Assembly: GCA_016187945.1 (NCBI GenBank)
Contig: JACPIT010000005.1
Span: 496,001-560,000, forward strand
Direction: 5' to 3'
Origin: Opitutia bacterium
Lineage (GTDB): Bacteria > Verrucomicrobiota > Verrucomicrobiia > Opitutales > Opitutaceae
DNA: 64,000 nucleotides
The notes beneath the pieces are model-generated. The model had not been told where the DNA came from and did no database searches. It worked only from the letters and a program-made list of their open reading frames with translations. Below are positions 10,865 to 34,950 of this stretch, in pieces. The position numbers and the translations under genes are program-made. How positions within the stretch are numbered: position 1 is the first letter of the stretch; each line of letters opens with the position of its first letter.

Positions 10865-12261
10865 ATCCGACTCAGAGCCGCCTACGCGAGGGGTGGAGCG
10901 CGTTGACCTCAACGCGCTCGAGCGTGTCCGCTGCGGGCTGCATCCCCGAGCGTCTTGGGGTCAAGCCGCTCCACCTCCATGCCGGACCCATAGCCGTTGC
11001 CGCCCGTTTTTGCGCCTTCTTGTGCCTCTTTGCGGCCAACTCTTCCGTCGCTCGCGCCGCCGACGCCATGCCGCTCGCGATCCTCGCCGACACGATTCAC
11101 ACCGCCGCCGGCGCGCCGATCCGCGACGGCCTCGTGCTCGTCGGCCGCGACGGCAAGATCGCCTACGTCGGCCCGGCGAAAGACATGGTCTACACCGCCG
11201 ATCACCGCGTCGTGCACGCGAAGGTCGTCACGCCCGGCCTCATCGACGCGCGCGCCACGGTCGGCCTCTCCGGCCTGCTGAACCAGCCGCACGATCAAGA
11301 CATGCTCGAACGCTCCGCCGCGGTGCAGCCCGAGCTGCGCGCGCTCGATGCCTACAACGCGCAGGATCCGCTCGTCGCCTGGGTGCGCGGCTTCGGCATC
11401 ACCACCGTCAACACCGGTCACGCGCCCGGCACGCTCGTTTCCGGTCAGACGATGATCGTGAAAACGCTCGGCCGCGAAACCGACGAAGACGTGATCAATC
11501 CCGCTGCCATGACCGCCGTCTCGCTCGGCAACGCCGCGCTCAATCGCAGCGACGGCCCCGGCGGCGGCGCGAGCGCCGGCGGTCCGCCGAAATCCCCCGG
11601 CACACGCGCCAAAGCCGTTGCGATGCTCCGCGCCGAACTGATCAAGGCGCAGGAATACGCGAAGAAGCGCGACGCGAAGGACGAGACGAAGCGTCCGGGC
11701 CGCGACCTTCGCGCCGAGACGTTCTTGCGCGCGCTCGACGGCTCGCAGCCGTTGCTCATCACCGCCAACAAGCAGCTCGATATTCTCGCGGCGCTCCGCC
11801 TCGCGAAGGAGTTCAACCTGAAGATCGTCCTCGACGGCTGCGCCGACGCTCAACTCGTGCTCGACCAGATCAAGGCGAGCGGCTTCCCCGTCATCCTGCA
11901 TCCGACGATGGCCCGCGCGAACGAAGACGCGGAGAACCTCGCGATGGACACGGCCGCGAAACTCCGCGCGGCCGGCATCCCGTTTGCGATTGAGAGCGGC
12001 TACGAAGGCTACGTGCCGAAGACGCGCGTCGTGCTCTTCGAGGCCGCGGTGGCGGCGGGCAAAGGCCTCGGCTTCGACGGCGCACTAGCGAGCGTGACGA
12101 TCGACGCCGCGAAGATCCTCGGCATCGCCGACCGCGTGGGTTCGCTCGAGAAAGGCAAGGACGCCGACCTCGCGCTCTACGACGGCGACCCGTTCGAATA
12201 CACGAGCCACTGCACGGCCACGGTGATCAACGGCCAGCTTTTCGAGCACGCCGCGAACTGA
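10861..12261 (+). CDS. Amidohydrolase paralogue without metal ligands, REP in N terminus
   Basis: This 466-residue protein is homologous to the coupled upstream amidohydrolase (TPGLIDARAT for MPGIVDSHSH, VGSLEKGKDADLALYDGDPF near the end). The HxH is replaced by Ala-Arg-Ala, the HHTHRHDD segment by TANKQLD, and the TDDP loop by SGYEGY. It is therefore probably catalytically dead and may support the active partner. The start is fixed by the ATGA overlap. Between that ATG and the signal-peptide core (residues about 45-67), a REP unit is read in frame as residues 11-39 (starting GWSALTSTRS). No in-frame ATG lies between the repeat and the hydrophobic core, so translation through the repeat seems necessary unless a TTG is used. 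Confidence 0.82.
   Translation: MNPTQSRLREGWSALTSTRSSVSAAGCIPERLGVKPLHLHAGPIAVAARFCAFLCLFAANSSVARAADAMPLAILADTIHTAAGAPIRDGLVLVGRDGKIAYVGPAKDMVYTADHRVVHAKVVTPGLIDARATVGLSGLLNQPHDQDMLERSAAVQPELRALDAYNAQDPLVAWVRGFGITTVNTGHAPGTLVSGQTMIVKTLGRETDEDVINPAAMTAVSLGNAALNRSDGPGGGASAGGPPKSPGTRAKAVAMLRAELIKAQEYAKKRDAKDETKRPGRDLRAETFLRALDGSQPLLITANKQLDILAALRLAKEFNLKIVLDGCADAQLVLDQIKASGFPVILHPTMARANEDAENLAMDTAAKLRAAGIPFAIESGYEGYVPKTRVVLFEAAVAAGKGLGFDGALASVTIDAAKILGIADRVGSLEKGKDADLALYDGDPFEYTSHCTATVINGQLFEHAAN
10892..10976. repeat. REP palindromic unit inside a coding sequence
   Basis: The left arm GGTGGAGCGCGTTGACCTCA and the right arm TTGGGGTCAAGCCGCTCCAC match the family consensus. It lies 31 bases after the start codon of the second amidohydrolase and keeps the reading frame open. 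Confidence 0.9.
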
Positions 12262-12309
12262 ACGTGCCGCTGACAAGGTGGCCCACGACCTCCGGGCGCG
12301 GGTCGTCCG

Positions 12310-12395
12310 AGGTGGAACGCGTTGACCCCAACGCGTTCAAGAACCCGCGCCGCCATTCGCACGTCCAAGCGCGTTGAGGTCGACGCGCTCCACCT
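12310..12395. repeat. REP palindromic unit, full copy
   Basis: The left arm is AGGTGGAACGCGTTGACC and the right arm GAGGTCGACGCGCTCCACCT. It follows the amidohydrolase pair by about 50 bases. Confidence 0.85.
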
Positions 12396-12450
12396 CGCGC
12401 CAATCGCGGCGTAAAGCCGCTCCTACAGTTCACGCGAGCGTGGGCTCGGA

Positions 12451-12503
12451 GTAGCGCAGGCGTCCCGCCTGCTTCCGGCAGGCAGGCGAGACGCCTGCGC
12501 TAC
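12451..12503. repeat. Palindrome of the GTAGCGCAGGCGTC family
   Basis: The arms GTAGCGCAGGCGTCCCGCCT and AGGCGAGACGCCTGCGCTAC are inverted around a short spacer. It ends 7 bases beyond the stop of the minus-strand beta-lactamase-like gene. Confidence 0.8.
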
Positions 12504-12510
12504 CGCTCTC

Positions 12511-13428
12511 TCACGGCAAGTTTGCCAGCACGCGTCGCGCGATCGCGGCGATGATCTTCCGGTTGTTCGCGTGCTCGCGGCCGTCGGTGAACGTCACGAT
12601 CACCACGCGGCCGCCATCGGGCAGCTCGATCAGCGCAGCGTCGTGCCGCGCCCAGCTCACCCATCCGGCTTTCGACCACAGTTTCATGCCGGGCGAGAGC
12701 GCGGGGCCGGTGAAGCCGACGTCTTGCGAGTCGGGATCGTCGCTCTTCTTGAACGGATCGCGCCGCATCAGTTCGAGCATCTGCGCGGAGCGCGCAGGCG
12801 AGACGCAGCGGCCTTGCGCGACTTCGACGAGCAGCCGCGCGGTGTCGTTCGTCGAAAGATGATTCCGCGCCGGCGGATGCGCTTCCATGTCCTGCTTCTC
12901 GCGACCGTAGGGGCCTTCGCCCCAGGGTTTCCGTTGCGCGTAGACGTTGGTGTAGCCGAGGCCGGCGAAGTAGCGCGTCACGACGCCGCGTTGCGCGTTC
13001 CATCTCGTCAGCTCGTCGGGCGGCAGTTCGGGGCCGCTCGTCGTGCCGGTGATGGCGTCGACGACGTAGCTCGTCGCCTCGTTGTAGGAATCGACGATCA
13101 TGTCGCGCAGACCGCGGCGCAGCTCGGGCGTGTCGGCGAGCTGGCCGTCTTCCATGCGGCGGTGCGCGTAGGCGGCGAAGAAGAGTTTGATCACGCTCGC
13201 CGGATAAATGCGCGCGTCGCCGCGGTAGTTGGCCCACGCTGGCGTTGGGCCGCGGAGATCGACGACCGTCACGGCGATTTGATCGGGCTTCAGTTCGGGC
13301 GCGGTGAATTCCGCGCGCGTCTCGGCCACGGCGCGATCGAGGACGCGTTGCAGCGCCGCCGAGTCAGCCGCCCGGGCGGAACCGAAGACGAAAAGGCCGA
13401 TCGCGAGGGCGAAGGCGGAGAATTTCAT
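12511..13428 (-). CDS. Class A beta-lactamase-like serine hydrolase, exported
   Basis: This 305-residue protein starts with a signal peptide (FSAFALAIGLFVFGSARAAD). It carries the penicillin-binding/beta-lactamase fold motifs: the SxxK nucleophile Ser78-Val-Ile-Lys81 (PASVIKLF), a second motif Ser114-Tyr-Asn116 (SYNEAT) and a KxG-type third motif in WSKAGW. The second motif is SYN rather than the SDN of typical class A lactamases, and KTG is replaced by KAG. It could be a peptidoglycan peptidase or an intrinsic lactamase; resistance activity is not shown. The ATG at 13428 gives the shortest N terminus that retains the signal peptide. It stands alone on this strand. Confidence 0.8.
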   Translation of the reverse strand: MKFSAFALAIGLFVFGSARAADSAALQRVLDRAVAETRAEFTAPELKPDQIAVTVVDLRGPTPAWANYRGDARIYPASVIKLFFAAYAHRRMEDGQLADTPELRRGLRDMIVDSYNEATSYVVDAITGTTSGPELPPDELTRWNAQRGVVTRYFAGLGYTNVYAQRKPWGEGPYGREKQDMEAHPPARNHLSTNDTARLLVEVAQGRCVSPARSAQMLELMRRDPFKKSDDPDSQDVGFTGPALSPGMKLWSKAGWVSWARHDAALIELPDGGRVVIVTFTDGREHANNRKIIAAIARRVLANLP

Positions 13429-13490
13429 GCGAGAGAAAACAGAAACGCGGAAGACGGTGCGCGGTGGAGCCGCGATAAAATCCAAGACAG

Positions 13491-13604
13491 TTGGCCACGA
13501 AGAACACAAAAACGTTCGTCGCGCCGACGAAAGTCACACCGTGCGCCTATAGGCGCCTTGAGAGCCACCTTCGCAGACGAGGTCTTTGTGTTTTTTGTGG
13601 CCAT
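13491..13604. repeat. Large inverted repeat with A/T-rich arms
   Basis: The arms GGCCACGAAGAACACAAAAA and the complement of GTCTTTGTGTTTTTTGTGGC face each other across about 55 bases. It lies between the start of the beta-lactamase-like gene and the stop of the MarC gene. No gene lies in this gap (13429-13654). Confidence 0.7.
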
Positions 13605-13654
13605 GCCTTGGTCTGGACCGAGACGGCGACGCCTCGAATCGCGCGTGTGCCGCC

Positions 13655-14239
13655 TCACGAGCGCCAGCCCTGCCGGATCATCGCGACGGCGATGGCGGCG
13701 AGGAGCATGGAAATGATTTTCGAGATCGCGCGCATGCCGGTCGGCCCGATCTTGCGGCCGAGCCATTCGCTGTAGTGCAGCGCGAGGACGACGAGCACGA
13801 GATTCACGACGAGCGCCGCGAGCGTGACCACGACGCCGACGTTCTGATTTTGCGCGAGCACGAGCAGCGTCGTGATCGACGCCGGGCCGGCGATGAGCGG
13901 CATGCCGAGCGGCACGACGCCGAAATCCTCCGGGAGTTTCTCGCTCTCGGCCGCCGAGGAGAGCAGGTCTTTCGCGGCGATGACGAACAGAATCAGGCCG
14001 CCTGCGATCTGGAAATCGCTCACCGAGATGCCGAGCGCGGCGAAGATCGACGTGCCAAGGAACAGGAAGCCCAGCGCCACGAGTCCGCCGGTCCAGATCG
14101 CTTGATCGGCGACTTTCTGGCGGCGTTCGCGCGGCAGGTTTTGCCCGAGCCCGAGGAAGATCGCCGCGAGGCCGATCGGGTCGATCGCCACGAAGAGCGG
14201 GATGAACGCCTGCAGGAACTTGTTCGCCCAGTCGAGCAT
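13655..14239 (-). CDS. MarC/UPF0056 family membrane protein
   Basis: This 194-residue inner-membrane protein has six predicted membrane segments. It matches the MarC family: the N-terminal FLQAFIPLFVAIDPIGLAAI, the central GGLILFVIAAKDLL, and MPLIAGPASITTLLVL. The function of MarC proteins is not established; older links to multiple antibiotic resistance were withdrawn. Length and topology are normal for the family. The ATG at 14239 gives the expected short N terminus. It is read in the same direction as the beta-lactamase-like gene, but a 226-base gap with an inverted repeat separates them, so co-transcription is uncertain. Confidence 0.9.
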   Translation of the reverse strand: MLDWANKFLQAFIPLFVAIDPIGLAAIFLGLGQNLPRERRQKVADQAIWTGGLVALGFLFLGTSIFAALGISVSDFQIAGGLILFVIAAKDLLSSAAESEKLPEDFGVVPLGMPLIAGPASITTLLVLAQNQNVGVVVTLAALVVNLVLVVLALHYSEWLGRKIGPTGMRAISKIISMLLAAIAVAMIRQGWRS

Positions 14240-14367
14240 GCCGTCACGCTGCGGCGAGGCGCGGAAAAGGCAACGCGCCAGCGGGCCAGTTTGAGCAATC
14301 CGTGCGCAGCCGGCCCGCGTTGACGGGAGTAAACTTCCGGCCTCAACCCCGAAAAAAGGAGGACGCC

Positions 14368-14640
14368 ATGTCCGCCATCAAAATCCATCTCGAAGATGCC
14401 GAGATGCACCCCGTCGAGCGCCTCGCCCGGCTGCTCCACGTCGAGACCGAAGACGTCGCCTACGCCGCGCTCAATCGCCTGATGCTCCAGGCGCGCGATC
14501 CCGAAGTGCAGAACGATATCTGCCAGACGTGCAAAAGCCGCGACACCCAACTGCCGCTCTGGGCCGACACCGCCGGCTCGGTGCACGCTTACGAAGGCAT
14601 GCGCGACTGCGACCCGGAACACAGCAAATACTCGGTCTAG
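14368..14640 (+). CDS. Small conserved-looking protein with CxxC
   Basis: I do not recognise this 90-residue acidic protein. It is well supported as a gene: a perfect Shine-Dalgarno AAGGAGG lies 6 bases before the ATG at 14368, and no competing ORF is better. The first half is helical and His/Glu-rich; the middle has NDICQTCKSRD, a single CxxC that could bind a metal or act in thiol chemistry, and a third Cys lies near the end (RDCDPEH). There is no signal peptide, so it should be cytoplasmic. It is separated from its neighbours by repeats and is probably transcribed alone. Confidence 0.7.
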   Translation: MSAIKIHLEDAEMHPVERLARLLHVETEDVAYAALNRLMLQARDPEVQNDICQTCKSRDTQLPLWADTAGSVHAYEGMRDCDPEHSKYSV

Positions 14641-14984
14641 ATTTTTCCCGCCACGGCGCGTGCCGTAGGGCCGGCTTCAGCCGGCCCAGTTGGAACTTCG
14701 CCGGCGCACGACGCGCGCGAACGCTGCGGCGCCGTTGCGCGCGAGTGCCTTCGTTGTAGGAGCCTGCTTGCAGGCGACCCAACGCAGCCGACACGGAGGT
14801 TCGTTCGGTCGCCTGCAAGCAGGCTCCTACAAAACAATCATCGCTCAGCCGGACTCTTGCAGTTGGCCCCGATTTCCCTCCGGAATTCCAAGACTGAAAA
14901 GTGAGAGGGTGGGCCAGCCCGCTGGCGGGCGCCCAAGGAGCGCGAGCAAGCTCGCTGGCCCACAGGCAACGGCATGATCCCGGC
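14641..14984. other. Intergenic region composed of repeats
   Basis: No gene is seen. It contains a GTAGGGCCGGCTTCAGCCGG palindrome (about 14668-14691), the GTAGGAGCCTGCTTGCAGGC pair (14756-14830) and most of a long dispersed repeat (14845-14987). Confidence 0.8.
14756..14830. repeat. Palindrome of the GTAGGAGCCTGCTTG family
   Basis: The arms GTAGGAGCCTGCTTGCAGGC and GCCTGCAAGCAGGCTCCTAC are perfect inverted repeats of 20 bases around a spacer of 35 bases. Confidence 0.9.
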
Positions 14985-14987
14985 TCA
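14845..14987. repeat. Dispersed repeat of about 140 bases, copy A
   Basis: Nearly identical, in opposite orientation, to 47429-47571. It contains an internal palindrome (GGGCCAGCCCGCTGGCGGGC and CAAGCTCGCTGGCCC). In both copies the end of the repeat, TGAGCCGGGATCATGCC, includes the TGA stop codon of the adjacent gene. Confidence 0.9.
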
Positions 14988-15935
14988 GTCCGCCAGCGCC
15001 GTCAGCGCGGACACGAGTCGCGGCGCCTTGAATCGGAAGCCCTCCGCGAGGAGGCGCGCCGGCACGGCGTATTGGCCTTCGAGGATCAGGCTTGGATCGG
15101 TCTTCAACACGAGCGGCGCGACGAGCCGGATCGCGAACGCCGGCGCCGGCGGCGCCCACGGTCGGCCGAGCACTTCGCGCAGCGTGCGCATGAACTCGGC
15201 GTTGCCCACCGGCTCGGGCGCGCAGGCGTTGTAGGTGCCGCGCATCGCGTCGTCGTTCACGGCGCGCAGAAAAATTTCCTCCAGATCGTCGAGCAGAACC
15301 CAACTGATGCCCTGCCGGCCGCTGCCGGCGCGTCCACCGAGAAACGCCTTCGTCGCGCGCGCGAGCGGCGGGTAGGCGCCGCCCTTGCGACCGAGCACCA
15401 CGCCGATGCGCAGCACGACGCCACGCACCGCGGGCGGACACTCGGCGGCGAACGCCGCTTCCCATTGCCGGCACACATCTGCCAGAAAATCCGTGCCCGC
15501 GTCCGCGGACGCGTCCTCCGCGCAGCGCCGCTCCGTGTCGCCGTAAATGCCGACCGCGCTCGCTTGCGCCCACACCGTCGGCGGCGTCGCACACGCGCGC
15601 GCAGCCGCGCCGAGCGCGCGCACGGCGTCGAGCCGCGACGCGAGGATGCGTTGGCGGTTCTCCGCCGTGTGCACGCAATCGATCGACGACCCGGCCAGGT
15701 TGATCAACGCGTGCGCGCCCTCGATCTCGCCCCACCAGGTCGGCCGCGCGGCAGTGTCATCTATTGGATTACACTCTGCTGCGGGCTCCCACGGCACCTC
15801 GCGCACGCCGTCGCCGCGGCGGCGGGGCGTCGAGCGCGTAAGCACGACGACCTCCGCGCCGCGCTCGCGGAAGCGGCGCGCGAGCGCGGCGCCGATGAAA
15901 CCGGTGCCGCCGGCGATGACGATGCGTTGAGCCAT
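14985..15935 (-). CDS. TIGR01777-family NAD(P)-dependent epimerase
   Basis: This 316-residue protein belongs to the extended short-chain dehydrogenase group known as TIGR01777 (YfcH/SulA-like). The N-terminal IAGGTGFIGAALARRF is the dinucleotide-binding motif. HALINLAGSSI, the QASAVGIYGD segment and WVLLDDLEEIF are typical of the family, as is the C-terminal LEGQYAVPARLLAEGFRFKAP. The physiological substrate of this family is generally unknown. It is divergent from rlmN, with about 50 bases between the two starts, so they share a promoter region. Its stop codon is the first base triplet of a 140-base dispersed repeat. Confidence 0.88.
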   Translation of the reverse strand: MAQRIVIAGGTGFIGAALARRFRERGAEVVVLTRSTPRRRGDGVREVPWEPAAECNPIDDTAARPTWWGEIEGAHALINLAGSSIDCVHTAENRQRILASRLDAVRALGAAARACATPPTVWAQASAVGIYGDTERRCAEDASADAGTDFLADVCRQWEAAFAAECPPAVRGVVLRIGVVLGRKGGAYPPLARATKAFLGGRAGSGRQGISWVLLDDLEEIFLRAVNDDAMRGTYNACAPEPVGNAEFMRTLREVLGRPWAPPAPAFAIRLVAPLVLKTDPSLILEGQYAVPARLLAEGFRFKAPRLVSALTALAD

Positions 15936-15985
15936 AGTAAATTTGTAGGAGCGACTGGACGCCGCGACAAGTCAGCCCTAAGCTG

Positions 15986-17155
15986 GTGTCGGTGCCCACG
16001 CCTCCGGCCAACTTCTACGACTTCACGCGCGACGAACTGCTCGCGCTGACGTCGCGCTGGGGATTTCCGCCGGTGCACGCGGCGCGGTTGTGGAGCTACG
16101 TTTACCTCGCGGGCGTGGAGGACTGGCGCGCGATGCCGGAGCTGCCGGCGCGTTTCCGCGCGAAAGCGGAGAGCGAGCTGAGCTTCGGCCGCCACGCCAC
16201 TGCCGCGGAGACGCACAGCGCGGACGGTTTTACCCGGAAATACCTGCTCGAACTCTCCGACGGCCGACGCATCGAGACGGTGCTGATGCGCTACACGGGA
16301 CGCGTGACGGCGTGCATCAGCAGCCAGGTCGGCTGCGCGATGGGCTGCGTGTTCTGCGCGACGGGGCAAATGGGTTTCATGCGTCATCTCAGCGCCGGCG
16401 AGATCGTCGCGCAGGCGATGCACGTCGACGCCGTGCTGCGCGAAACCTCGGGCCAGGCAGGGCGAGTCGTCCTCGACGAGCCGCATCGCACACCGGCTCA
16501 TCGGGACGATTCGCCCTACCCGACGCCCGCGCTCGCGCAGCCTGCGAGCGCCTCGCCGCACGAGCGTCACGAGCGGCTGCGCAACATCGTGCTCATGGGC
16601 ATGGGCGAGCCGCTGCACAATTACGACGCGGTGATGAAGGCGATCGACATCCTGCGCGACCCCAACGGGCTCGCCCTCGGCGCGAAGAAAATCACGCTCA
16701 GCACCGTCGGCGTCGTGCCCGGCATCCGGCGGCTCGCGGAGGAGCGTCGGCCGTTTCACCTCGCGGTTTCGCTCCACGGCGCGACACAGGAGGAGCGCGC
16801 GGCGCTGGTGCCCGCCGCGAGGAAGTGGCCGCTCGACGAATTGATGGACGCCTGCCGCGCCTACATCGCGCAGCAGCAGCGGCGCGTTTTCTACGAGTGG
16901 ACGCTGATCGAGGGGAGAAACGACACGCCGGAAACCGCGCACGCCGTCGGTCGCCTGCTGCAAGGTCAGCTCGCGCAGGTGAACCTGATCCCGCTGAATC
17001 CGACGAACGGCTACGACGGCGCGCCGACCGGCCGCGAGGCGGCGAAGCGTTTTCAGGAAATCCTGGCCGGCTACGATCTGCCGAGCACGGTGCGGCAGCG
17101 TCGCGGCATCGACATCGCGGCGGGCTGCGGCCAGCTCGCGGTGGCGAAGAAGTAG
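15986..17155 (+). CDS. rlmN: 23S rRNA/tRNA adenine-C2 methyltransferase RlmN
   Basis: This 389-residue radical-SAM enzyme methylates C2 of A2503 in 23S rRNA and A37 in some tRNAs. Cys117, Cys121 and Cys124 in CAMGCVFCATG bind the iron-sulfur cluster. The SAM-binding MGMGEPLHNY follows, and the catalytic cysteine for the mixed-disulfide step is in RGIDIAAGCGQL near the C terminus. Between the cluster motif and MGMGEP, residues about 157-178 (from AGRVVLDEPHRT) are encoded by a palindromic repeat that is intergenic elsewhere (59140-59165). This insert is in frame in a surface-loop position. Two in-frame GTG codons (15986, 15992) compete as the start. Confidence 0.93.
   Translation: MSVPTPPANFYDFTRDELLALTSRWGFPPVHAARLWSYVYLAGVEDWRAMPELPARFRAKAESELSFGRHATAAETHSADGFTRKYLLELSDGRRIETVLMRYTGRVTACISSQVGCAMGCVFCATGQMGFMRHLSAGEIVAQAMHVDAVLRETSGQAGRVVLDEPHRTPAHRDDSPYPTPALAQPASASPHERHERLRNIVLMGMGEPLHNYDAVMKAIDILRDPNGLALGAKKITLSTVGVVPGIRRLAEERRPFHLAVSLHGATQEERAALVPAARKWPLDELMDACRAYIAQQQRRVFYEWTLIEGRNDTPETAHAVGRLLQGQLAQVNLIPLNPTNGYDGAPTGREAAKRFQEILAGYDLPSTVRQRRGIDIAAGCGQLAVAKK
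16456..16520. repeat. Palindromic repeat inserted in frame in rlmN
   Basis: The left arm GGCAGGGCGAGTCGTCCTCG is the near reverse complement of the right arm GGGACGATTCGCCCTACC. The right arm matches 24 of 26 bases of an intergenic copy at 59140-59165. Confidence 0.85.
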
Positions 17156-17156
17156 C

Positions 17157-17325
17157 GAGTAGCGCGGTGCTTCGGCCCGCGCTGGAGCGTTTTCAGCGCG
17201 CGCTGAAGCACCGCGCTACCACGAGCCTGCATTCGCGTGAATTGTAGGAGCGGCTTTACGCCGCGATTCGTTCGGACGCGGCAGGCGCAGCAATCGCGGC
17301 GTAAAGCCGCTCCTACAATCGTTCG
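17157..17325. repeat. Two adjacent palindromes after rlmN
   Basis: The first (about 17157-17221) has arms GTAGCGCGGTGCTTCGG and CTGAAGCACCGCGCTAC. The second (17244-17316) has arms GTAGGAGCGGCTTTACGCCG and CGGCGTAAAGCCGCTCCTAC. They fill the convergent gap between rlmN and the minus-strand gene at 17326. Confidence 0.88.
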
Positions 17326-18765: not shown

Positions 18766-19206
18766 GCCGCGAGCCAAGCGGACGCGCCGCCCGCGCGCCA
18801 ATAAAATTTCCCCCGCTCGTGGCGGGGCTGCGGTGCGACCGGAGGCATCTCGTTCTCCGGCAGACCGCCTCGGTGATGGCGAGGTCTGCCCGCCTTGAGC
18901 GGGAGCGAGTGCGGCGACGGAGCGGTCGAGCAAAGCGAGAGTCTGGCATCCCCACATCCCCGGAGCGCGGATCTGTCCGCTCGCGTCAGGCGCGAGGACA
19001 AACCGTGGGTCGATGCGGGGATAGGGGAAACTGCGGTAGGACGGGGCCGGAAGCGCGAGGCGGGAGTTTCTCCCGTGCAGAGATTCGCATTATCCCATCG
19101 AATGAGGGTGATTCAGACTCGGAAAAACGGGGTCCATCTTTTTGTTGTCTGTCCCTTCCGTTCGCGCCGTGCGGGTGCGCCGAACCTCAACCCGACGAAT
19201 TACTTC
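18766..19206. other. Intergenic region without recognisable features
   Basis: A divergent gap of 441 bases between the unknown minus-strand gene and the LuxR gene. I see a weak inverted pair near 18862-18889 (CAGACCGCCTC and GCGAGGTCTG) and no convincing ORF or promoter. Regulatory sites for both genes should lie here. Confidence 0.5.
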
Positions 19207-21597: not shown

Positions 21598-21600
21598 GTC

Positions 21601-24995: not shown

Positions 24996-25003
24996 ACGAC
25001 GTT

Positions 25004-25041: not shown

Positions 25042-25091
25042 AGGCCGGCAGGGAGGGATCAAACCGCGCCACGCAGGACGTGGCTTTGTGG

Positions 25092-27150: not shown

Positions 27151-27686
27151 ACGCGCGCTCGGAGCGCTCCCGCGAATGGCGCGAATGGCCGCGAATTCAG
27201 AGGGAGACGATCTTTTCCACGCGCTCGATGGCAGCGACAGGCCGGATGCATCCCGCCTATCGCTCGACGATTTTGTTCTTTTCCGCGGGTAGGGCGCGAC
27301 CGCTGGGCGCGCCGCGGGCGCGGCGGCCATCGGCGTTCGCCAAGGCTGCGGCCTGACAGGCGGCCCGACCACGTCTGACTCGCGCTGACAAGCAACGGCA
27401 CGATGCATCCGGGAGCGCGGACATGCGTCGCAATTTTCGCGAGCGGTGCCGAGGTGGTCGTCGCCGTCCCCGGCGACGACGCGCACGTCGTCAAGGGCAG
27501 CGCACGCTGAAGGCGCCGCTGGGGACAGCGGCGCCCACCCGCGCTACCGCGCGAAACGTCTGCACCGCTTGTCGGCGATTCACAACAGAGGGTGAGAGAT
27601 GCAGGATAGCGGGCTCCCGGAGCGGGGGAGGTTTCCGTCGTGCGAATTCGCGCCATTCGCGGACGACGGCATCGGTTCCGCCCGCC
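27151..27686. other. Intergenic region with degenerate repeats
   Basis: A 536-base gap with no convincing gene. It contains complementary tracts GCGAATGGCGCGAATGGCCG (near 27172) and GAATTCGCGCCATTCGCGGA (near 27644) that could pair over a long distance, part of a GTAGGGCGCGACCGCTGGGC element (about 27290) and a GGCGCCGCTGGGGACAGCGG palindrome (about 27512-27536). Confidence 0.6.
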
Positions 27687-29036
27687 TCAGCGTTGCAGCG
27701 CGGCGATGGCGGCGGCTTTCAGTTTCACGCCGGGGAGCTCCTGCCAGCTCAGCGTCGCGGAGCCGAAGTAGCGCTCGGAGTTGCGCGCGCCCCAATCGGT
27801 CGTGGCGATGCGGTAGATGCGGTCGGGCGCGATCGTCTCGGGCGCGGCGGCGACGAGGAAATCGCCGCGGCGTTCCTCGAACGGCGTGTTCACGTTCTGA
27901 TTGGCGGCGGCGACGAGTTCGCGCAGGCGCACGCCGTCGATCTCCGTCGTGAAAACGCCGCCGTCGAAACGCACGCACGCGTCGAAGGCGAGGCGCGACA
28001 CTTCGCCCGCCGGCAGGCCGCCGCCGAACGTGGTGTTGCCGATGAACGCGGCGTCGACGCGCGCGGCGTCGCGCAGCGCGCCGGCGACAAAGCGTGCGGC
28101 GGCGCCGGGCGGGAGCGCCGCGCGCAGCCGGCCGACGGACACGAGGTCTTCGGGTTTGAGGTGTTCGCGGCGGACTTTCTGGATGAAGCTGGCCATCGGC
28201 ATGTCGGCGGCGCCGGTCTCGGACAACTCGACTTGCTCGACGCTCCATCGCAGCGCGCCGCCGAGGCCTTGACGGAGCCACACGAGCGAGGCGTGGCTGT
28301 TCCAACTGCCGCTGTGGAAATAGACGGTGTGGCCTTGCGGGTGGACGAAGCGCAGGTGGTCGTGCGCGCCGGCGAAGAGGGTGCCGTCGGGGACGATCTT
28401 GAGCAGCTCGCGGTCGGCTTCGAGGCCGGCGTGGCTGAGCACGATGAGCGGACCCTGTTTCGCGAAGCGCGGCAGGTATTCGCGGCCCCACGCGACGGGC
28501 TCGGCGGGTTTGAGCGACGGACGGATCGGGACACGGTAGGTGGCGAGGTGATCCGTCGTGAGGCCGACGAGCACGGTGTCGATGCGGCCGAGCTTCAGTC
28601 CGACGGCGGGATCGGTGAAGTATTTGCCCGTGCTGCGGTCGCGGAGATTGCTGATCGGCACGACGCCGGTGTCGCGCACGCGTTTCAAGGTCTCGGCGAC
28701 GTCGTAGAATTCCGGGTCGTGATTGCCGAGATTGAGAAAGGTCGGCACGCGGCTCGCGAGCGCGCGGAACATTTCGAAATCGATCGCGCCATGCGAGCGG
28801 CGCGCGACGACGTTGCCGTATTCCTGCGTGTCGCCGTCGAGGAGGACGGCGATCGGCAGGTCGGGATTTTTCAACCGCAGCCGGTCGACCAGCGCGATGA
28901 ACTGCGCCGTGCGTTCGTAGGCGGAATGCTGGTCGCCCATCACGACGAGCAACGCTTCGACCTCCGCGCCGCGAGCGAGCGCACCCCAGCCGCATGCGAG
29001 AAGCACGAGCAGGATGGCGAGGCGACGGGGGAGCAT
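27687..29036 (-). CDS. Exported 5'-nucleotidase-like metallophosphoesterase
   Basis: This 449-residue protein has a signal peptide (LAILLVLLACGWGALARG), a calcineurin-like phosphoesterase domain and a 5'-nucleotidase C-terminal domain. The metal motifs are visible: GDQHSAY, LLDGDTQEYG, NLGNHDPEFYD, LSHAG and AGAHDHLRF. The C-terminal domain has SWQELPGVKLK near its end and the IATTDWGARNSERYFG region that lines the nucleotide pocket in this family. It probably removes phosphate from nucleotides in the periplasm. The first motif reads D-x-H, as expected; the last is HDH within GAHDH rather than GHTH. The ATG at 29036 fits the signal peptide. Confidence 0.87.
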   Translation of the reverse strand: MLPRRLAILLVLLACGWGALARGAEVEALLVVMGDQHSAYERTAQFIALVDRLRLKNPDLPIAVLLDGDTQEYGNVVARRSHGAIDFEMFRALASRVPTFLNLGNHDPEFYDVAETLKRVRDTGVVPISNLRDRSTGKYFTDPAVGLKLGRIDTVLVGLTTDHLATYRVPIRPSLKPAEPVAWGREYLPRFAKQGPLIVLSHAGLEADRELLKIVPDGTLFAGAHDHLRFVHPQGHTVYFHSGSWNSHASLVWLRQGLGGALRWSVEQVELSETGAADMPMASFIQKVRREHLKPEDLVSVGRLRAALPPGAAARFVAGALRDAARVDAAFIGNTTFGGGLPAGEVSRLAFDACVRFDGGVFTTEIDGVRLRELVAAANQNVNTPFEERRGDFLVAAAPETIAPDRIYRIATTDWGARNSERYFGSATLSWQELPGVKLKAAAIAALQR

Positions 29037-29227
29037 CCGCGCGATGCTTCGGAGCCGCGCGCAGGCTGACAACTCAGAAGAACGGCAGGGAAAAATTCCC
29101 GTCGTCGCGGAAAAATTTCCCCAGAAGCGCCGGGCTGCATTCCCGTAGGATGGTGGGCGTCCGCGAGTCATCGCTCGCGCATGCTCGGCGCGCCGCCGCG
29201 CGCTGAACCGAAATTTCGGGCTACGTC

Positions 29228-29256
29228 GGGCCGGCCCGAGTGGGCCGGCCCTTTTT
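29228..29256 (+). terminator. Terminator-like hairpin
   Basis: GGGCCGGCCC, GAGT and GGGCCGGCCC are followed by TTTTT on the plus strand. The hairpin is ideal, but no plus-strand gene lies just upstream, so its role is unclear. It sits in the 384-base gap 29037-29420, which also holds one arm of the TTTACGCCGCGA repeat near 29302-29323 and no gene. Confidence 0.4.
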
Positions 29257-29420
29257 CGCCGGGTTTTTCCGAGCGAGGCCGAGCCGTCGCTCGCGCGAAA
29301 CGTAGGGGCGCTTTACGCCGCGATTCGAGAGCGGCGCGCGCATCGCGCCACTCGCTCGCTCGCGTCCGGCGAGTCGCGCGCCCACTTTTATCGGCGCGTC
29401 GGCACAGGCGTGCACTGGCC

Positions 29421-30410
29421 TCAGCCGCTGCGGGGCGGGGCGAGGCGGGCGGGCGGGACGCCGGCGCGAATTTCGAGCGTGGCGAGAACCTTCGGCACAT
29501 ACATGCGCGTCTCGGACGGCAGATGCGGCGCGATCGCGGCGAAGGTCTTCGCGCGCTTCGCTTCGAGCAGGCGGCGCACGCGGCCTTCGCCGGCGTTGTA
29601 GGCGGCGAGCGCGAGCGGCCAGTCGCCGAATTTGCCGTGGAGCGTGCGCAGGTAGCGCGCGGCGGCGCGGGCGGATTTTTCCGGGTCGGCGCGCTCGTCG
29701 GGCAAAAACGTGCTGAGGCCGAGGCTCTTCGCCGTTGCGGGCATAAACTGGTAGAGCCCGCGCGCGCCGGAAGGGCTGCGCGCCGCGGGATTGAACGTCG
29801 ACTCGGCCTCCGCGAGCCACGCGAGATCGGCCGGCACGCCCTCGGTGTCGAACGCCGCGCGCACGATCGGCAGCAGTTGCGGCGCGCGCAGTGGCACCGG
29901 GCGCGTGCGCATGCGAGCGAGCCAGAGCTGGTAGTAGGGGATGTCGGGCGTCGCGATCGGCGGGCGCTGGCCGGGTTTCAGCGCGGGCGGCTTCGGCGGG
30001 AGCGCGTGGCCGGGTTGCTTCACGGCGAGGCTCGCGGCTTGGATGTAGTCGAGGCGCTCTTCGAGCCACTCGGCGTAATCCGCGTAGTCGGGGAAAAGTT
30101 GAAGCGCCTTCAGTGCGGCGCGGGCTTCGGGTTCGTAGGCGGCGAGCGCGCGCAGATCGTTTTGATCGAGCGCCGCCTGAAGGCGCGCGGCGAAGGCGTC
30201 CCACTCCTGCTTAGAAGGGAAATAAAATTCCCGCTTCACCTCCGGCGGCGCGTAGTCGTCGAAGAGCTGCTTGCCCTGCCGATAGAGTGCATCGAGGTCG
30301 ATCTCCGGCTCGGGCTCTGGCGGCGGCTTGGCCGACGCGGGCCTGGCCGGCTGCGCGAATGCCGTGGCGGCGAAAAACAGGAGCGGCGGCAGGGCGCGGA
30401 GCATTTTCAT
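29421..30410 (-). CDS. Lytic transglycosylase (SLT family)
   Basis: This 329-residue exported enzyme cleaves peptidoglycan glycan strands. A signal peptide (LPPLLFFAATAFAQ) and a Pro/Glu linker precede a helical region, and the SLT domain covers about residues 175-320. The catalytic Glu203 is in AEAESTFNPAARS, followed by SGARGLYQFMPATAKSLGL and the AAYNAGEGRV motif, all diagnostic for family 1 transglycosylases. The start ATG at 30410 fits the signal peptide. It is divergent from miaB, and the gap contains a palindromic repeat. Confidence 0.93.
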   Translation of the reverse strand: MKMLRALPPLLFFAATAFAQPARPASAKPPPEPEPEIDLDALYRQGKQLFDDYAPPEVKREFYFPSKQEWDAFAARLQAALDQNDLRALAAYEPEARAALKALQLFPDYADYAEWLEERLDYIQAASLAVKQPGHALPPKPPALKPGQRPPIATPDIPYYQLWLARMRTRPVPLRAPQLLPIVRAAFDTEGVPADLAWLAEAESTFNPAARSPSGARGLYQFMPATAKSLGLSTFLPDERADPEKSARAAARYLRTLHGKFGDWPLALAAYNAGEGRVRRLLEAKRAKTFAAIAPHLPSETRMYVPKVLATLEIRAGVPPARLAPPRSG

Positions 30411-30660
30411 GAGGCGGAAGGCAGGGCATTGGCCAACAAATGCGCCCAAAGCACAAAGAGACTTTTGCGATTCCTGCGCTTTTTGCGGCCAACAAGGCCG
30501 TCGCGGCGGCGAGGAGGATTCCTGCGGCTTTGTGCCTCGGCGTCGTTGGGGTTCCAATGCGGGGTTTTCATCCGGGCGCTCGGACTGAGACCGTCGGGAC
30601 GCGAAACCGTTTCCCGCGTTGACCGCGCGACCGTTGCAGGTAGCTAGAGCCCCTTCACGG
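30411..30660. other. Divergent gap with a hairpin repeat
   Basis: A palindrome (30430-30495) with arms TTGGCCAACAAATGCGCCCA and CTGCGCTTTTTGCGGCCAAC lies just before the transglycosylase start. The rest of the gap shows no gene and no clear promoter. Confidence 0.7.
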
Positions 30661-30741
30661 ATGAATCGCGTCTTCCTCCAAACCCATGGCTGCCCACCTG
30701 CGCCGGAGCTTCGGCGGGGCCGCGTCCGCGCGTCCGCATGA
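30661..30741 (+). CDS. Mini-ORF overlapping and mimicking the miaB start
   Basis: A 26-codon ORF begins MNRVFLQTHGC and ends with a TGA that overlaps the miaB ATG as ATGA. Its first 11 residues imitate the MiaB N terminus MNRVFIKTYGC; at DNA level 27 of the first 34 bases are identical. After that the reading becomes Arg/Pro-rich (PPAPELRRGRVRASA). It could be a partial duplication of the miaB start, a leader peptide that couples translation to miaB, or chance preservation. I cannot see an attenuator hairpin. No function is claimed. Confidence 0.5.
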   Translation: MNRVFLQTHGCPPAPELRRGRVRASA

Positions 30742-32198
30742 ATCGGGTTTTCATCAAGACCTACGGCTGCCAGATGAACGAGCGCGACAGCGAGGCGGTC
30801 GCGGCGATGCTGCGCGCGCGGGGCTATCGCATCGTGCAGGACGAGAACGCGTGCGACGTGATGCTGCTCAACACCTGCAGCGTGCGCGACATGGCCGAGC
30901 AGAAGGCCATCGGCAAAGCGGGCTACCTTTCGCAGAGGAAGAAACGCAATCCGCGCTTCGTGATCGGCATCCTGGGTTGCATGGCACAAAACCGCGGCGC
31001 CGCGCTGCTCGACGCCCTGCCGGATGTCGACCTCATCGTCGGCACGCAGAAGTTTCACCAGGTTCCCGACCACCTCGACAACCTGCGCGCTGCGCAGGAA
31101 GCCGGCGCGGTGCTGCCGACGCGCATCGTCGACATCGCCGAGGAGGCCGGCTCCCAGAACACGATCAAGGACCACCTGCTGCCGCAGGACGAGCCGGGTA
31201 GGGCGGGGACTCCGCTCCCCGCCGACGCTTCCGGCTCTCAACCCTCAACTCTCAACTCTCAACCCGGCAGCGGCTCCGAGCCGCTGCCGCAAGTGACCGC
31301 GTTCGTCTCGATCCAGCAGGGCTGCAACATGGACTGTGCGTTCTGCATCGTGCCGAAAACCCGCGGCGACGAACGCTCGCGGCCGATGGACGAGATCGTG
31401 CGCGAGTGCGAGGAGCTCGCCGATCGCGGCGTGCGCGAGATCACGCTGCTCGGCCAGATCGTCACGAGTTACGGCCGGCGCGACTACCAGCACACGGGTG
31501 GCGTCAGCCCGTTCGTGCAACTGCTCGAACGCGTGAACGCCATCTCCGGCATTCGCCGCATCCGCTTCACCTCGCCGCATCCGCGCGGCTTCAAGGACGA
31601 CCTCGTCGCCGCCTACGGCCGCCTCGAGAAACTCTGCGAATACGTCCACCTGCCGATGCAGAGCGGCAGCGACCGCATCCTGCGGCTGATGAACCGGCCC
31701 TACTCGCGCGATCGTTACCGGCAGATCGTCGACGACCTGCGCCGCGTGCGGCCGGACATGTATTTCTCCACGGACATCATCGTCGGCTTCCCCGGCGAGA
31801 CGGCGGAGGACTTCGAGCAGACGCGCGCGCTCTTCGAGGCCTGCAACTACGACATGGCCTACATCTTCAAATACTCGATCCGCAGCGGCACGCCGGCGGC
31901 CGAGCTGGCCGACCAAGTGCCCGACGAGGTGAAGGAGGAGCGAAATCAAATCCTGCTCCGCCTGCTAGAGCAAAACTCCGACCGCCGCAACGCCACGCTC
32001 CTCGGCACGACCCAGGAAGTGCTGGTCGAAGGCCCGGACAAGAAAGGCCTCGGCTACATGGGCCGCACACGCGGCAACCGCATCGTGCACTTCGCCGCGC
32101 ACGAGCGCCTGATCGGCGAACTCGTGCCGGTGAAGATCAACCGCGCCTCCACCGCCGTGCTCTACGGCGAGCTGGAGCTCGCCGGCGTGGAGCCGTAG
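30738..32198 (+). CDS. miaB: tRNA-2-methylthio-N6-dimethylallyladenosine synthase MiaB
   Basis: This 486-residue radical-SAM methylthiotransferase modifies A37 of tRNAs reading U-starting codons. The N-terminal UPF0004 domain has the cluster cysteines in KTYGCQMNERDSE, LLNTCSVRDMAEQK and GILGCMAQNRG. The radical-SAM cluster is CNMDCAFC followed by IVPKTRGDERSRP, and a TRAM domain ends the protein. Residues about 154-184 before the radical-SAM motif (EPGRAGTPLPADASG and onward) are extra relative to the family and encoded by three palindromic or tandem repeats in frame. The start is fixed by family alignment and the ATGA overlap with the mini-ORF. Confidence 0.95.
   Translation: MNRVFIKTYGCQMNERDSEAVAAMLRARGYRIVQDENACDVMLLNTCSVRDMAEQKAIGKAGYLSQRKKRNPRFVIGILGCMAQNRGAALLDALPDVDLIVGTQKFHQVPDHLDNLRAAQEAGAVLPTRIVDIAEEAGSQNTIKDHLLPQDEPGRAGTPLPADASGSQPSTLNSQPGSGSEPLPQVTAFVSIQQGCNMDCAFCIVPKTRGDERSRPMDEIVRECEELADRGVREITLLGQIVTSYGRRDYQHTGGVSPFVQLLERVNAISGIRRIRFTSPHPRGFKDDLVAAYGRLEKLCEYVHLPMQSGSDRILRLMNRPYSRDRYRQIVDDLRRVRPDMYFSTDIIVGFPGETAEDFEQTRALFEACNYDMAYIFKYSIRSGTPAAELADQVPDEVKEERNQILLRLLEQNSDRRNATLLGTTQEVLVEGPDKKGLGYMGRTRGNRIVHFAAHERLIGELVPVKINRASTAVLYGELELAGVEP
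31197..31288. repeat. Composite repeat inserted in frame in miaB
   Basis: Three elements lie in a row: GGCGGGGACTCCGCTCCCCG (31197-31224, similar to an intergenic copy at 59107-59135), a TCTCAACCCTCAACTCTCAA tandem tract (31237-31265) and a GGCAGCGGCTCCGAGCCGCT palindrome (31266-31288). All are translated within MiaB. Confidence 0.8.
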
Positions 32199-32672
32199 AT
32201 CTTTCTCTTTCCTCTTTCTCTTAATCTTTCTCCCTCCGATGAGCGCTCCGATCTTCGACCACGAAAAACTAAAGGCTTACCAAGAAGCGCTTCGTTTCAT
32301 CGGGTGGATCACCCCCATCATCGATCGGTTGCCCGGCAGGGTGGCCGCCAAAGATCAGCTTGATCGTGCGTCTACCAGCATCGCGCTGAATCTCGCAGAA
32401 GGAAATGGCAAGCGGTCGCACCCCGACCGTTGCCGGTTTTTCGACATCGCACGTGGTTCGGGCGTCGAATGTGCCGCCTGCCTCGACGTTTTGCGTGTGA
32501 AACAGCTTGTTTCGGATGATGAAGTTACGATTGGGAAATCCATTCTCATCGAGGTTGTTTCCATGACCGCAGGTTTGATCGCTCGCTTTGGTGGGGCTGT
32601 GCACGAGGACGCCGCTAACTATCTCTCAAACGAAGAGATTGAAGAGAAAGAGAAAGATTAAGAGAAAGATTT
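32199..32672. repeat. Inverted polypurine arms bracketing the four-helix-bundle gene
   Basis: The left arm (32199-32237) contains TCTTTCTCTTAATCTTTCTC. The right arm (about 32640-32672) contains the complement, GAGAAAGATTAAGAGAAAGA. The left arm starts right after the miaB stop. The right arm encodes the C-terminal EEKEKD and the stop codon of the enclosed gene. The same arms occur at 3872-4025. Confidence 0.75.
32239..32661 (+). CDS. Four-helix-bundle protein (S23/bAvd family)
   Basis: This 140-residue protein matches the S23-type four-helix-bundle family. FDHEKLKAYQEALRFIGW, then KDQLDRASTSIALNLAEGNG and FDIARGSGVECAACLDVL, are the diagnostic positions. Relatives occur in 23S rRNA intervening sequences and beside retroelements; their role is mostly unknown, and one relative (bAvd) assists a diversity-generating reverse transcriptase. 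Here there is no rRNA or reverse transcriptase nearby. The gene lies between inverted polypurine arms, the right one forming its last codons, and there is no Shine-Dalgarno sequence because the left arm is pyrimidine-rich. It looks like a small mobile or hitch-hiking unit. Confidence 0.88.
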   Translation: MSAPIFDHEKLKAYQEALRFIGWITPIIDRLPGRVAAKDQLDRASTSIALNLAEGNGKRSHPDRCRFFDIARGSGVECAACLDVLRVKQLVSDDEVTIGKSILIEVVSMTAGLIARFGGAVHEDAANYLSNEEIEEKEKD

Positions 32673-32676
32673 CTTC

Positions 32677-33222
32677 ATGTCTCTTTTTCTCGCCACCCTC
32701 CTGCCCGGTCTCTTCCTCGCGCTCCTCGGCGCGTTGCTGGCGTGGGGCGATCCGCGTGTCAGTTCGACGGCCAGGGCCCTGCCGCGCTCGCAGCGCGGCG
32801 CCTGGCTCTTTTTCGGCGGCGGCGCGCTGTGGTTTCTCTTCCGGCTCTCGCGGCTCGGCGAGGCGGACCTGATTTTCTTCCAAAACCCCGCGCCGGTGAT
32901 GCTCGCATTCGGCGCGCTCGCCGTGCTCGCGTTCGTCTACGCGCCCGACTTCCTCGCCGTGCGCGGGCTGTGCATCCTCACGCTGCTCGCCGCCGAGCCG
33001 CTGCTCTACGCGGCCTATATGGAGTGGACGCACCCGCAGCGCCTGCTGATGGTCACCGCCGTCTACGTCGCGCTGGCTGCGGCGCTCTACCTCGCGGCGG
33101 CACCGTATCGTCTGCGCGATTTTTTCGAGTGGCTCTTCAAACAACCGAGGCGCGCGCGGACGCTCGGAGTGTTCCTGCTGGTTTACGGACTCGTCACCGC
33201 CGGCGCCGCGTTCGCTTACTGA
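32677..33222 (+). CDS. Uncharacterised inner-membrane protein
   Basis: I do not recognise this 181-residue protein. It has about five membrane segments: FLATLLPGLFLALLGALLAW, AWLFFGGGALWFLFRL, VMLAFGALAVLAFVY, a long hydrophobic pair around residues 105-145, and VFLLVYGLVTAGAAFAY at the C terminus. A soluble loop has LPRSQRGAW. The stop is 3 bases before the gmk ATG, so it is probably co-transcribed with guanylate kinase. The ATG at 32677 follows the polypurine arm (AGAGAAAGATTTCTTC), which may supply ribosome binding. Confidence 0.72.
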   Translation: MSLFLATLLPGLFLALLGALLAWGDPRVSSTARALPRSQRGAWLFFGGGALWFLFRLSRLGEADLIFFQNPAPVMLAFGALAVLAFVYAPDFLAVRGLCILTLLAAEPLLYAAYMEWTHPQRLLMVTAVYVALAAALYLAAAPYRLRDFFEWLFKQPRRARTLGVFLLVYGLVTAGAAFAY

Positions 33223-33225
33223 GCC

Positions 33226-33831
33226 ATGGCCGATCATCCGACCGTGTTGCTCATCCTCGCCGGCCCTTCCGGCGTCGGCAAAAGCACGCTCTGCGACCGC
33301 CTCGTGCGTGAAGTGCCGGGCTTCGAGCGCGTCATCACCGCCACCACGCGCAAGCCGCGCCCGAACGAGGTCGACGGCCGCGACTACCACTTCCTGTCCG
33401 AGGTGGAATTCCGCCGCCGCGTCGCCGCCGGGGAATTTCTGGAGACCGCCAAGGTGCACAACGGCAGTTTCTACGGCACGTTGAAATCCGCCGTGCTCGA
33501 CCGCCTGCCGCACACCAATCTCGTCATGAACATCGACGTGCAGGGCGTGCGCAGCATCCGCTCCGCCGAGCGGACGACGCCGGGGTTGCACGGCCGGCTC
33601 GTCACGATGTTCGTCGCGCCCGACTCGATCGACGTGCTGCGCGAGCGCCTGCAAGGCCGCGGCGCGGTCACGCCCGACGAACTCGCGCGCCGCATGCAAA
33701 GCGCCGAACTCGAAATGGTCGAGCGCTACACCTACGACTACATCATCCACAGCGGCACGAAGGAACAGGACTTCCGCGCGCTGCTGGATTTCTGGGAGCA
33801 GGCGAAACGCAAACTCGGCCGCGCCTGCTGA
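33226..33831 (+). CDS. gmk: Guanylate kinase
   Basis: This 201-residue essential enzyme transfers phosphate from ATP to GMP. The P-loop GPSGVGKST covers residues 13-21. The GMP-binding region TATTRKPRPNEVDGRDYHFL and the FLETAKVHNGSFYGTLKSAV segment follow, with NIDVQGVRSIR as the Walker B-like strand. Length is normal. It lies 3 bases after the membrane-protein gene and 15 bases before the metallo-beta-lactamase-fold gene, so a three-gene operon is likely. Confidence 0.96.
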   Translation: MADHPTVLLILAGPSGVGKSTLCDRLVREVPGFERVITATTRKPRPNEVDGRDYHFLSEVEFRRRVAAGEFLETAKVHNGSFYGTLKSAVLDRLPHTNLVMNIDVQGVRSIRSAERTTPGLHGRLVTMFVAPDSIDVLRERLQGRGAVTPDELARRMQSAELEMVERYTYDYIIHSGTKEQDFRALLDFWEQAKRKLGRAC

Positions 33832-33846
33832 GCGCGTCCGCCTCAC

Positions 33847-34950
33847 ATGCCGCGCGCGCCGCGATTTCCGGTCAGCGATCACTGCGACGGCGAGCGCTTC
33901 TTCAATCCGCCGCCGCAACCGCAGGCACTCGGCTTCTCGTCACTGCCGCGCTGGTGGCTGCAACAACTCCGCGGCGATCTCCAACGCTGGCCGCGCGACG
34001 TGCCGCCACCGCGCCGCGTGCAATTGCCCGCGAGCGTCGCGCCGGGCGAAGTCGCGGTGACGTTTATCGGCCACTCGACGTTCCTGCTCCAGTTCGCCGG
34101 GCTCACGATTCTCACCGACCCGATTTTCGCGCGCTGTGCGGGACCGTTCGGCCTCTTCGGCCCGAAGCGCGCGCGGCCGCCGGCGCTGCGGCTCGATGAG
34201 TTGCCCGCGATCGACGTCGTGCTCGTCTCGCACAACCACTACGACCACCTCGACCTCGCCACGCTGCACTGGCTGGCGCGCCATCGGCGCCCGAAATTCG
34301 TCACGTCGCTCGGCAACCAGGCGTGGCTCGCCGCGCGCGAAATCGAGTCCGACGTCGTCGAACTCGATTGGTGGCAGACGGCCGACGTCATCCCGAGCGA
34401 CGGTGAGCCATCGCGCGCCAGGTGGAGCGAGTTGACCTCAACCCGCTCCGAACGCGTTGAGGTCAACGCGTTCCACCTCGATCAGTCGAACGCGCCGGCG
34501 CAACCGCTGCTGCGCGTGACCGCGACGCCCGCGCAGCACTTCACGGCGCGCGCGCCGTGGGATCGCTGTCGCACGCTCTGGAACGGCCTGATGTTGCACA
34601 CGCGCGCCGGCGACGTGTTCTTCTGCGGCGACTCCGGCTGGGGGCCGCACTTCGCGGCGATCCGCGAAAAACTCGGCGCGCCTGCGCTCGCGCTGATGCC
34701 GATCGGCGCTTACGAGCCGCGGTGGTTCATGCTTCCGGTGCACATGAATCCCGACGAAGCCGTCCGCGCGCACCTCGCGCTCGGCGCGCGGCAGAGTCTC
34801 GGCATGCATTTCGGCACGTTCCAGCTCACGAACGAAGCGATCGACCAGCCGCTCCTCGACCTCGCCATCGCCCGCGAAGTGCACGGCGTGCCTGAGCCGG
34901 ATTTCACGACACTCGACTTCGGCGAGACGCGGACGCTGCGCCTGCGCTGA
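33847..34950 (+). CDS. Metallo-beta-lactamase-fold hydrolase, NAPE-PLD-like, with REP insert
   Basis: This 367-residue protein belongs to the NAPE-PLD/UlaG-like branch of the metallo-beta-lactamase fold. GHSTFLLQFAGLTILTDPIF and the zinc motif His129-Asn-His131-Tyr-Asp133-His134 are visible. FFCGDSGWGPHF provides the bridging Asp, and GMHFGTFQLTNE a late His ligand. NAPE-PLD relatives cleave phosphodiesters in lipids; the substrate here is unknown. Residues about 192-211 (RWSELTSTRS and ERVEVNAFHL) are the in-frame translation of a REP unit placed before the conserved TPAQHF segment. The frame and all metal ligands are intact, so the enzyme may tolerate the insert. Confidence 0.88.
   Translation: MPRAPRFPVSDHCDGERFFNPPPQPQALGFSSLPRWWLQQLRGDLQRWPRDVPPPRRVQLPASVAPGEVAVTFIGHSTFLLQFAGLTILTDPIFARCAGPFGLFGPKRARPPALRLDELPAIDVVLVSHNHYDHLDLATLHWLARHRRPKFVTSLGNQAWLAAREIESDVVELDWWQTADVIPSDGEPSRARWSELTSTRSERVEVNAFHLDQSNAPAQPLLRVTATPAQHFTARAPWDRCRTLWNGLMLHTRAGDVFFCGDSGWGPHFAAIREKLGAPALALMPIGAYEPRWFMLPVHMNPDEAVRAHLALGARQSLGMHFGTFQLTNEAIDQPLLDLAIAREVHGVPEPDFTTLDFGETRTLRLR
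34420..34478. repeat. REP palindromic unit inside a coding sequence
   Basis: AGGTGGAGCGAGTTGACCTC and GAGGTCAACGCGTTCCACCT form a compact palindrome of 59 bases with a shorter spacer than the intergenic copies. It is read in the same phase as the copy in the second amidohydrolase. Confidence 0.9.

Follow-up and report, generated by a model that had tools for sequence, protein, structure and literature searches.

REP elements in frame within genes of an Opitutaceae bacterium, and the RAYT-like genes that accompany them

Repetitive extragenic palindromic (REP) elements marked by a four-base GTAG tag have been described, intragenic copies included, in Opitutus terrae and other bacteria by Di Nocera et al. 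2013 (PMC3733652). According to that paper, O. terrae holds the most intragenic GTAG REPs among the genomes treated there, in-frame copies are described, uvrA and DnaE2 genes are named among those hit, and most O. terrae GTAG-20 units have GTGG as their tag. The same text links REPs to REP-associated tyrosine transposases (RAYTs), mentions the Rickettsia elements, and considers it plausible that genes inactivated by REPs are removed, whereas survivors may occupy flexible linkers. Here we describe a stretch of 64,000 nucleotides (the window; C9:496001-560000) from an Opitutia bacterium whose genome, G000, comprises 5,471,390 bases in 16 contigs. Three genes of the window carry palindromic repeats as in-frame inserts, and a RAYT-like gene lies between REPs of one of the families concerned. 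An earlier note on this DNA was aware of no description of such insertions in a genome of this kind; since PMC3733652 reports in-frame intragenic REPs in O. terrae, the window adds an independent case to a phenomenon already described. In later literature on Opitutaceae repeats nothing closer was found, by a search weak on subscription journals.

In-frame inserts in genes of the window

The gene of a metallo-β-lactamase (MBL)-fold hydrolase contains a GTGG REP dimer that encodes RWSELTSTRSERVEVNAFHL in a loop (Table 1) and folds far better than shuffled sequences (z −6.8). In an alignment of 30 loci (L031-L060) the REP is present in the window gene and in that of the relative G001, and absent from 28. 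Compared with the empty loops the gain is about 37 residues, exceeding the REP itself. Between G000 and G001 the REP is 98.3% identical over 60 bases, against 79-83% in the rest of the frame. An AlphaFold2 model (predicted TM score, pTM, 0.87) is confident outside the insert, and residues 187-213 have a predicted local distance difference test score (pLDDT) below 50; the underlying alignment covered 28 of the 30 loci and only 2 of its 28 sequences hold the insert, so thin alignment alone could lower pLDDT there. The MBL REP is a firm in-frame insert.

So is the repeat in the linker of RlmN. It belongs to the GTAGGGCGAGTCGTCC family, of which the genome has 100 half-sites and the control 0, and its hairpin scores z −6.2. 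In an alignment of 17 of 20 loci, the linker is occupied by this repeat family in G005 (L244) and by other repeats in G006 (L246); that of G001, G007, G004 and G009 is short. Linker length varies generally across relatives, and the repeat is absent from most of those aligned. The AlphaFold2 model (pTM 0.85, structure alignment of 19 of the 20 loci) is again confident outside the insert, with pLDDT below 50 at residues 159-178; in both models the insert takes the form of a disordered loop.

The third firm in-frame insert is a composite located between two conserved domains of MiaB. It was unique to the window protein when this was aligned with 29 loci out of the 80 found, and at its position the MiaB proteins of L065 and L070 carry other, shorter inserts. 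The GTAG-type unit of the composite has 26 matches in the genome at ≤3 mismatches, the sole exact one being the miaB copy. The closest named relatives of this MiaB are Opitutaceae, headed by a metagenome-assembled genome of Candidatus Didemnitutus (82% identity).

Ancestral protein sequence resembling the repeats by chance would agree with the loops of RlmN and of a major facilitator superfamily (MFS) transporter, which vary in length in all relatives. Exact DNA copies are abundant between genes, however, and the segments are absent from the great majority of MBL loci, as given above, and from all but the window protein among 30 MiaB. This reading, to which we attach next to no probability, is contradicted for MBL, MiaB and RlmN, for which residues shared with distant relatives, proposed earlier as the observation that would speak against insertion, were not encountered. 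For the MFS tract it is the better reading.

The earlier note had counted at least five intact genes with an in-frame repeat. Four of the five cited cases are REP-type repeats. The MBL, RlmN and MiaB genes stand. The pyrimidine tract of the MFS gene was rejected as a mobile repeat: it matched no repeat family, the best other match in the 675-kb genome sample described below having E = 0.02, and it lies in a variable loop about 6 residues longer than that of G007, the loop of G001 being different and longer. The amidohydrolase case is ambiguous. Its REP dimer folds far better than shuffles (z −5.3), lies upstream of the signal peptide, and among 10 loci is common to G001 only, being absent from the other 8. 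There are in-frame GTG and TTG codons inside the REP, and direct reading of the sequence from the REP to the signal-peptide core found no in-frame ATG or GTG, so that the start codon is ambiguous; PMC3733652 warns that many N-terminal REPs may be non-coding. Between G000 and G001 this REP is 86.2% identical and its surroundings 87-88%.

REP families, RAYT-like genes and gene context

The half-site of the GTGG REP, GGTGGAGCGNGTTGACCTCAAC, has 203 matches in the genome at ≤2 mismatches (control 0) and 14 within the window at ≤3 mismatches, where 0.00 are expected. Its clusters (n = 113) are mainly +− pairs, most of them inverted and 55 to 86 bp long, and the REP hairpins tested had z scores of −4.4 to −6.8 against shuffles. 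The REP units proposed earlier at the amidohydrolase and MBL genes are dimers of this genome-wide family. A wider GTGG pattern was found in 20 of 57 genomes searched, with G000 first (220 half-sites) and G001 second (85); G015 has 24 and G007 has 3 in all.

The NCBIfam RAYT model NF047646 has 12 matches in G000, 7 of them above cut-off, whereas among 14 control genomes 6 gave matches and 1 a match above cut-off; a Pfam Y1_Tnp search of the genome returned 8 matches. One NF047646 match is the window gene, which has GTGG REPs on either side; the earlier note had surmised a RAYT and not placed it. A second RAYT, at C11:5654-6031, is bracketed by rlmN-type REPs at 5537-5562 and 6110-6135. Palindromes differing between genes lie alongside each of the remaining ten, the flanks of all 12 having been judged by eye (the automated frame for L308 was wrong). 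Flanking of a RAYT by the same family was accordingly found for the GTGG and rlmN-type families. Elsewhere in the window, an inverted pair of a GTAGCGCCGGTC-type palindrome (54547-54677) resembles the palindrome beside the RAYT at L307.

Gene context was read in a sample of 674,949 bases, made up of the window and 91 stretches drawn from the neighbourhood of GTGG and RAYT sites; its GTGG part comprises sites among those listed in contig order (104 of 203 and 101 of 202), a third list (n = 50) being complete. Searches with 13 palindrome families gave 265 elements, and 0 with each reversed control. Genes were called with a codon-usage script that at times misplaces starts (that of the amidohydrolase was put at 11068). 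Although gene calls cover 82.5% of the sample, only 22 elements (8%) lie in frame within genes with coding flanks: 11 of 113 GTGG, 5 of 21 rlmN-type and 6 of 131 others. Of the rest, 237 border on non-coding sequence, 2 separate opposed genes, and the 4 with same-strand coding on both sides look like spacers between neighbouring genes. The genic count leaves out monomers and the N-terminal cases (L176 and the amidohydrolase), and one of the 113 GTGG clusters, with only a 4-mismatch half-site, was dropped before this step. No clearly broken gene was seen among the elements of the sample.

Genic elements are therefore about ten times rarer than gene coverage predicts, as if most genic insertions had been removed, and the earlier suggestion that the host may favour such insertions is neither required nor supported. 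It would demand that REP-encoded segments bring some benefit, perhaps through changes to repair or RNA-modification enzymes. Genes of these kinds do recur among those hit (uvrA, DnaE2, rlmN, miaB, mnmA), Di Nocera et al. (PMC3733652) speculate likewise for repair genes, and the identity of the MBL REP between G000 and G001 exceeds that of its frame. Against this, besides the strong under-representation, the amidohydrolase REP is no better kept than its surroundings, and a glycoside hydrolase, an antiporter and the MBL hydrolase are also hit. We regard host preference as improbable.

The length of GTGG dimers is a multiple of 3 in 7 of 11 genic and 58 of 85 other copies, the common lengths of 57, 63, 75 and 84 all being such multiples, and the idea that genic dimers are special in this respect was rejected. 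Because genic dimers of 67, 56 and 86 bp occur, the length of the dimer cannot by itself account for the frame. Dimers of ≤57 bp are genic in 6 of 16 cases and longer ones in 5 of 80 (Fisher p = 0.0024), a pattern that was spotted before the test and concerns non-independent copies; this excess of short dimers in genes is a lead only.

Curated family cut-offs are exceeded by the REP-bearing RlmN, MiaB, MnmA, an error-prone DNA polymerase (DnaE2 type) and a copper-type P-type ATPase with two REPs; the presence of several unrelated palindrome families in frame within intact genes, already asserted for the window, is supported. Further genes hit are uvrA, a NADH:quinone/Mrp-type antiporter (REP past the Pfam match) and two GH2-type glycosidases; the L220 protein has a Pfam match under cut-off only, and that of L172 matched no Pfam family. 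Relative to solved homologues, MnmA carries about 15 inserted residues at its REP, and residues 409-437 of the ATPase, at its first REP, are without counterpart. RWS-LTSTRSERVEVNAFHL-type segments are the peptide type predicted from the inserts of the MBL hydrolase, RlmN, MiaB, MnmA and UvrA. The uvrA frame (L181 ORF 1882-6000, minus strand, C6:347890-353890), incomplete in that it ends at the stretch edge, combines units of three REP families with CTCTCAAC tracts in a single frame.

Table 1. Positions of the genes and repeats discussed, in window coordinates
Feature	Position	Strand	Basis
GTGG REP cluster, three half-units	310..458		Half-site search; outside genes by codon-usage gene calls
GTGG REP dimer upstream of window RAYT	1784..1887		Half-site search, flank reading
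REP half-unit without GTGG tag, immediately ahead of RAYT start	1896..1917		Repeat D1
RAYT-like gene, 162 aa, motif MPDHWH	1929..2417	+	NF047646 match at C9:498016-498393 (window 2016-2393), 66.5 bits, E 8.6e-18
Three GTGG REP half-units downstream of window RAYT	2455..2600		Half-site search, flank reading
GTGG REP dimer, intergenic	3648..3731		Half-site search, gene calls
Pyrimidine tract in MFS gene	5997..6025		Loop alignment, repeat search; no evidence of repeat insertion
Amidohydrolase gene with N-terminal REP	10861..12261	+	Pfam Amidohydro_3 and Amidohydro_1
GTGG REP dimer, 84 bp, 5′ end of amidohydrolase frame, coding status uncertain	10892..10975		Half-site search, alignment, hairpin folding
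GTGG REP dimer, intergenic	12311..12394		Half-site search, gene calls
rlmN	15986..17155	+	TIGR00048, 326.7 bits (cut-off 290)
GTAG-type REP dimer (GTAGGGCGAGTCGTCC family), in frame in RlmN linker, residues about 158-178	16457..16520		Half-sites, hairpin, linker comparison, model
miaB	30738..32198	+	TIGR01574, 455.8 bits (cut-off 355.3)
Composite in miaB: GTAG-type REP unit, CTCTCAAC tract, second palindrome	31198..31288		Alignment, repeat search, hairpin folding
MBL-fold hydrolase gene	33847..34950	+	Pfam Lactamase_B_2, 130.8 bits (cut-off 27)
GTGG REP dimer, 57 bp, in frame, residues about 192-211	34421..34477		Half-site search, alignment, hairpin folding, AlphaFold model

The first GTGG cluster of Table 1 includes the stop codon (322-324) of an open frame ending at 324. 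Among the other repeats of the window is a dispersed element, about 145 nt long, that occurs twice in opposite orientation (14845-14988 and 47428-47568; 98.6% over 141 nt) and recurs in L236 (92%) and part of L176 (95%). This element holds GGGCCAGC-type palindromes and looks like a miniature inverted-repeat transposable element (MITE). The window also has a 74-nt direct repeat pair (48301-48374 and 48482-48555; 80%) with an internal palindrome around TTCGCTTCCTTCG, and two 38-nt purine/pyrimidine tracts (3986-4023 and 32199-32236), 97% complementary.

Origin and history of the inserts

Insertion of REPs by RAYTs, with removal of gene-breaking copies, is very probably the best explanation of this distribution, and Di Nocera et al. 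(PMC3733652) put forward the same for O. terrae and others. The genome houses at least a dozen REP families, most beside their own RAYT gene, and RAYTs would probably copy REP dimers to new sites via single-stranded hairpins. Insertions would reach genes and intergenic sites, those that break genes would be lost, and the surviving minority would be copies that keep the frame, contain no stops and lie in flexible linkers or termini, where they would add disordered residues. The repeats and their families, the RAYT-like genes with matching palindromes beside them, the in-frame inserts, their absence from relatives and their low model confidence are shown here, whereas we infer that RAYTs transpose the REPs, that the inserts are translated and that selection does the filtering; the pattern fits purifying selection sparing tolerant linkers.

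Several observations weigh against this explanation. The window RAYT-like gene, at 66.5 bits, is under the curated NF047646 cut-off of 80, and the miaB unit adjoins no RAYT in the 12 RAYT flanks examined. The second REP of the P-type ATPase (residues 495-514) aligns to the solved homologue without net insertion, and judged from that alignment it may either have replaced residues or be loosely aligned. G007 is without the MBL and amidohydrolase REPs common to G000 and G001, with no scar at the MBL site.

The position of G007 bears on the history of the inserts. In a three-gene tree G001 groups with G007 (98) and G000 is adjacent; because the sister of G001 is without both REPs, simple shared descent is not clean, and three histories are conceivable: a clean loss of the REPs in G007, separate gains in G000 and in G001, or an exchange of genes. 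Spread by gene conversion or recombination between copies, in place of RAYT-driven insertion, could leave a near-identical MBL REP within the diverged flanks of G000 and G001. The empty sites in relatives, however, are those of true sequence gains at single points, and matching RAYTs are present, which makes such a spread very improbable. A few protein linkers might be landing pads that REPs reach repeatedly. Pointing in this direction are the RlmN linker, where G000 and G005 hold one family and G006 holds other repeats, and uvrA, with units of three families and CTCTCAAC tracts; the MBL loop was maybe hit separately in G000 and G001, that of G007 being empty and free of a scar. We hold the idea tentatively and think it rather unlikely. 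If true, RAYT activity, from about a dozen RAYT-REP systems in this free-living genome and with short 57-bp dimers over-represented in genes, would steadily supply new disordered protein segments at preferred sites.

Comparison with described systems

In Pseudomonas, inverted REP pairs (REPINs) with a linked RAYT reportedly occur in many copies, mostly outside genes (a finding attributed to Bertels and Rainey 2011). The present elements are likewise short palindromic units, often in inverted pairs, of high copy number (the half-site counts of the GTGG and rlmN-type families, the miaB unit having its 26 matches only), with a four-base tag, GTGG or GTAG, adjoining the hairpin. They differ in that a sizeable minority of copies is in frame in genes. 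Small mobile repeats with open frames are also reported inside genes of enterobacteria (PMC2759123); these are unrelated and longer, 103-168 bp. In-frame fusions are discussed as well in a review of MITEs (PMC10969869).

In the manner of the Rickettsia palindromic elements, as had been proposed for the window, several palindrome families are found both between genes and in frame within intact, apparently functional genes. The R. conorii repeats counted in PMC3733652 are of CGTC type, a group that this paper links to no transposase genes; the present elements carry GTGG or GTAG tags, and their genome has RAYT-like genes.

The likeness is closest to the GTAG REPs of O. terrae (PMC3733652), which are also palindromes with four-base tags, form dimers, are associated with RAYTs, and have in-frame copies in uvrA and DnaE2. 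The two hosts are of different genera that apparently belong to one bacterial family, and the tag of the present GTGG family agrees with that reported for most GTAG-20 units. Since uvrA and DnaE2 genes are hit in O. terrae and here, a preference for such genes can be tested across Opitutaceae. A known, little-studied phenomenon is thereby extended to a second genus, with a RAYT-like gene placed beside a gene-hitting REP family and three well-bordered examples that have empty sites in relatives.

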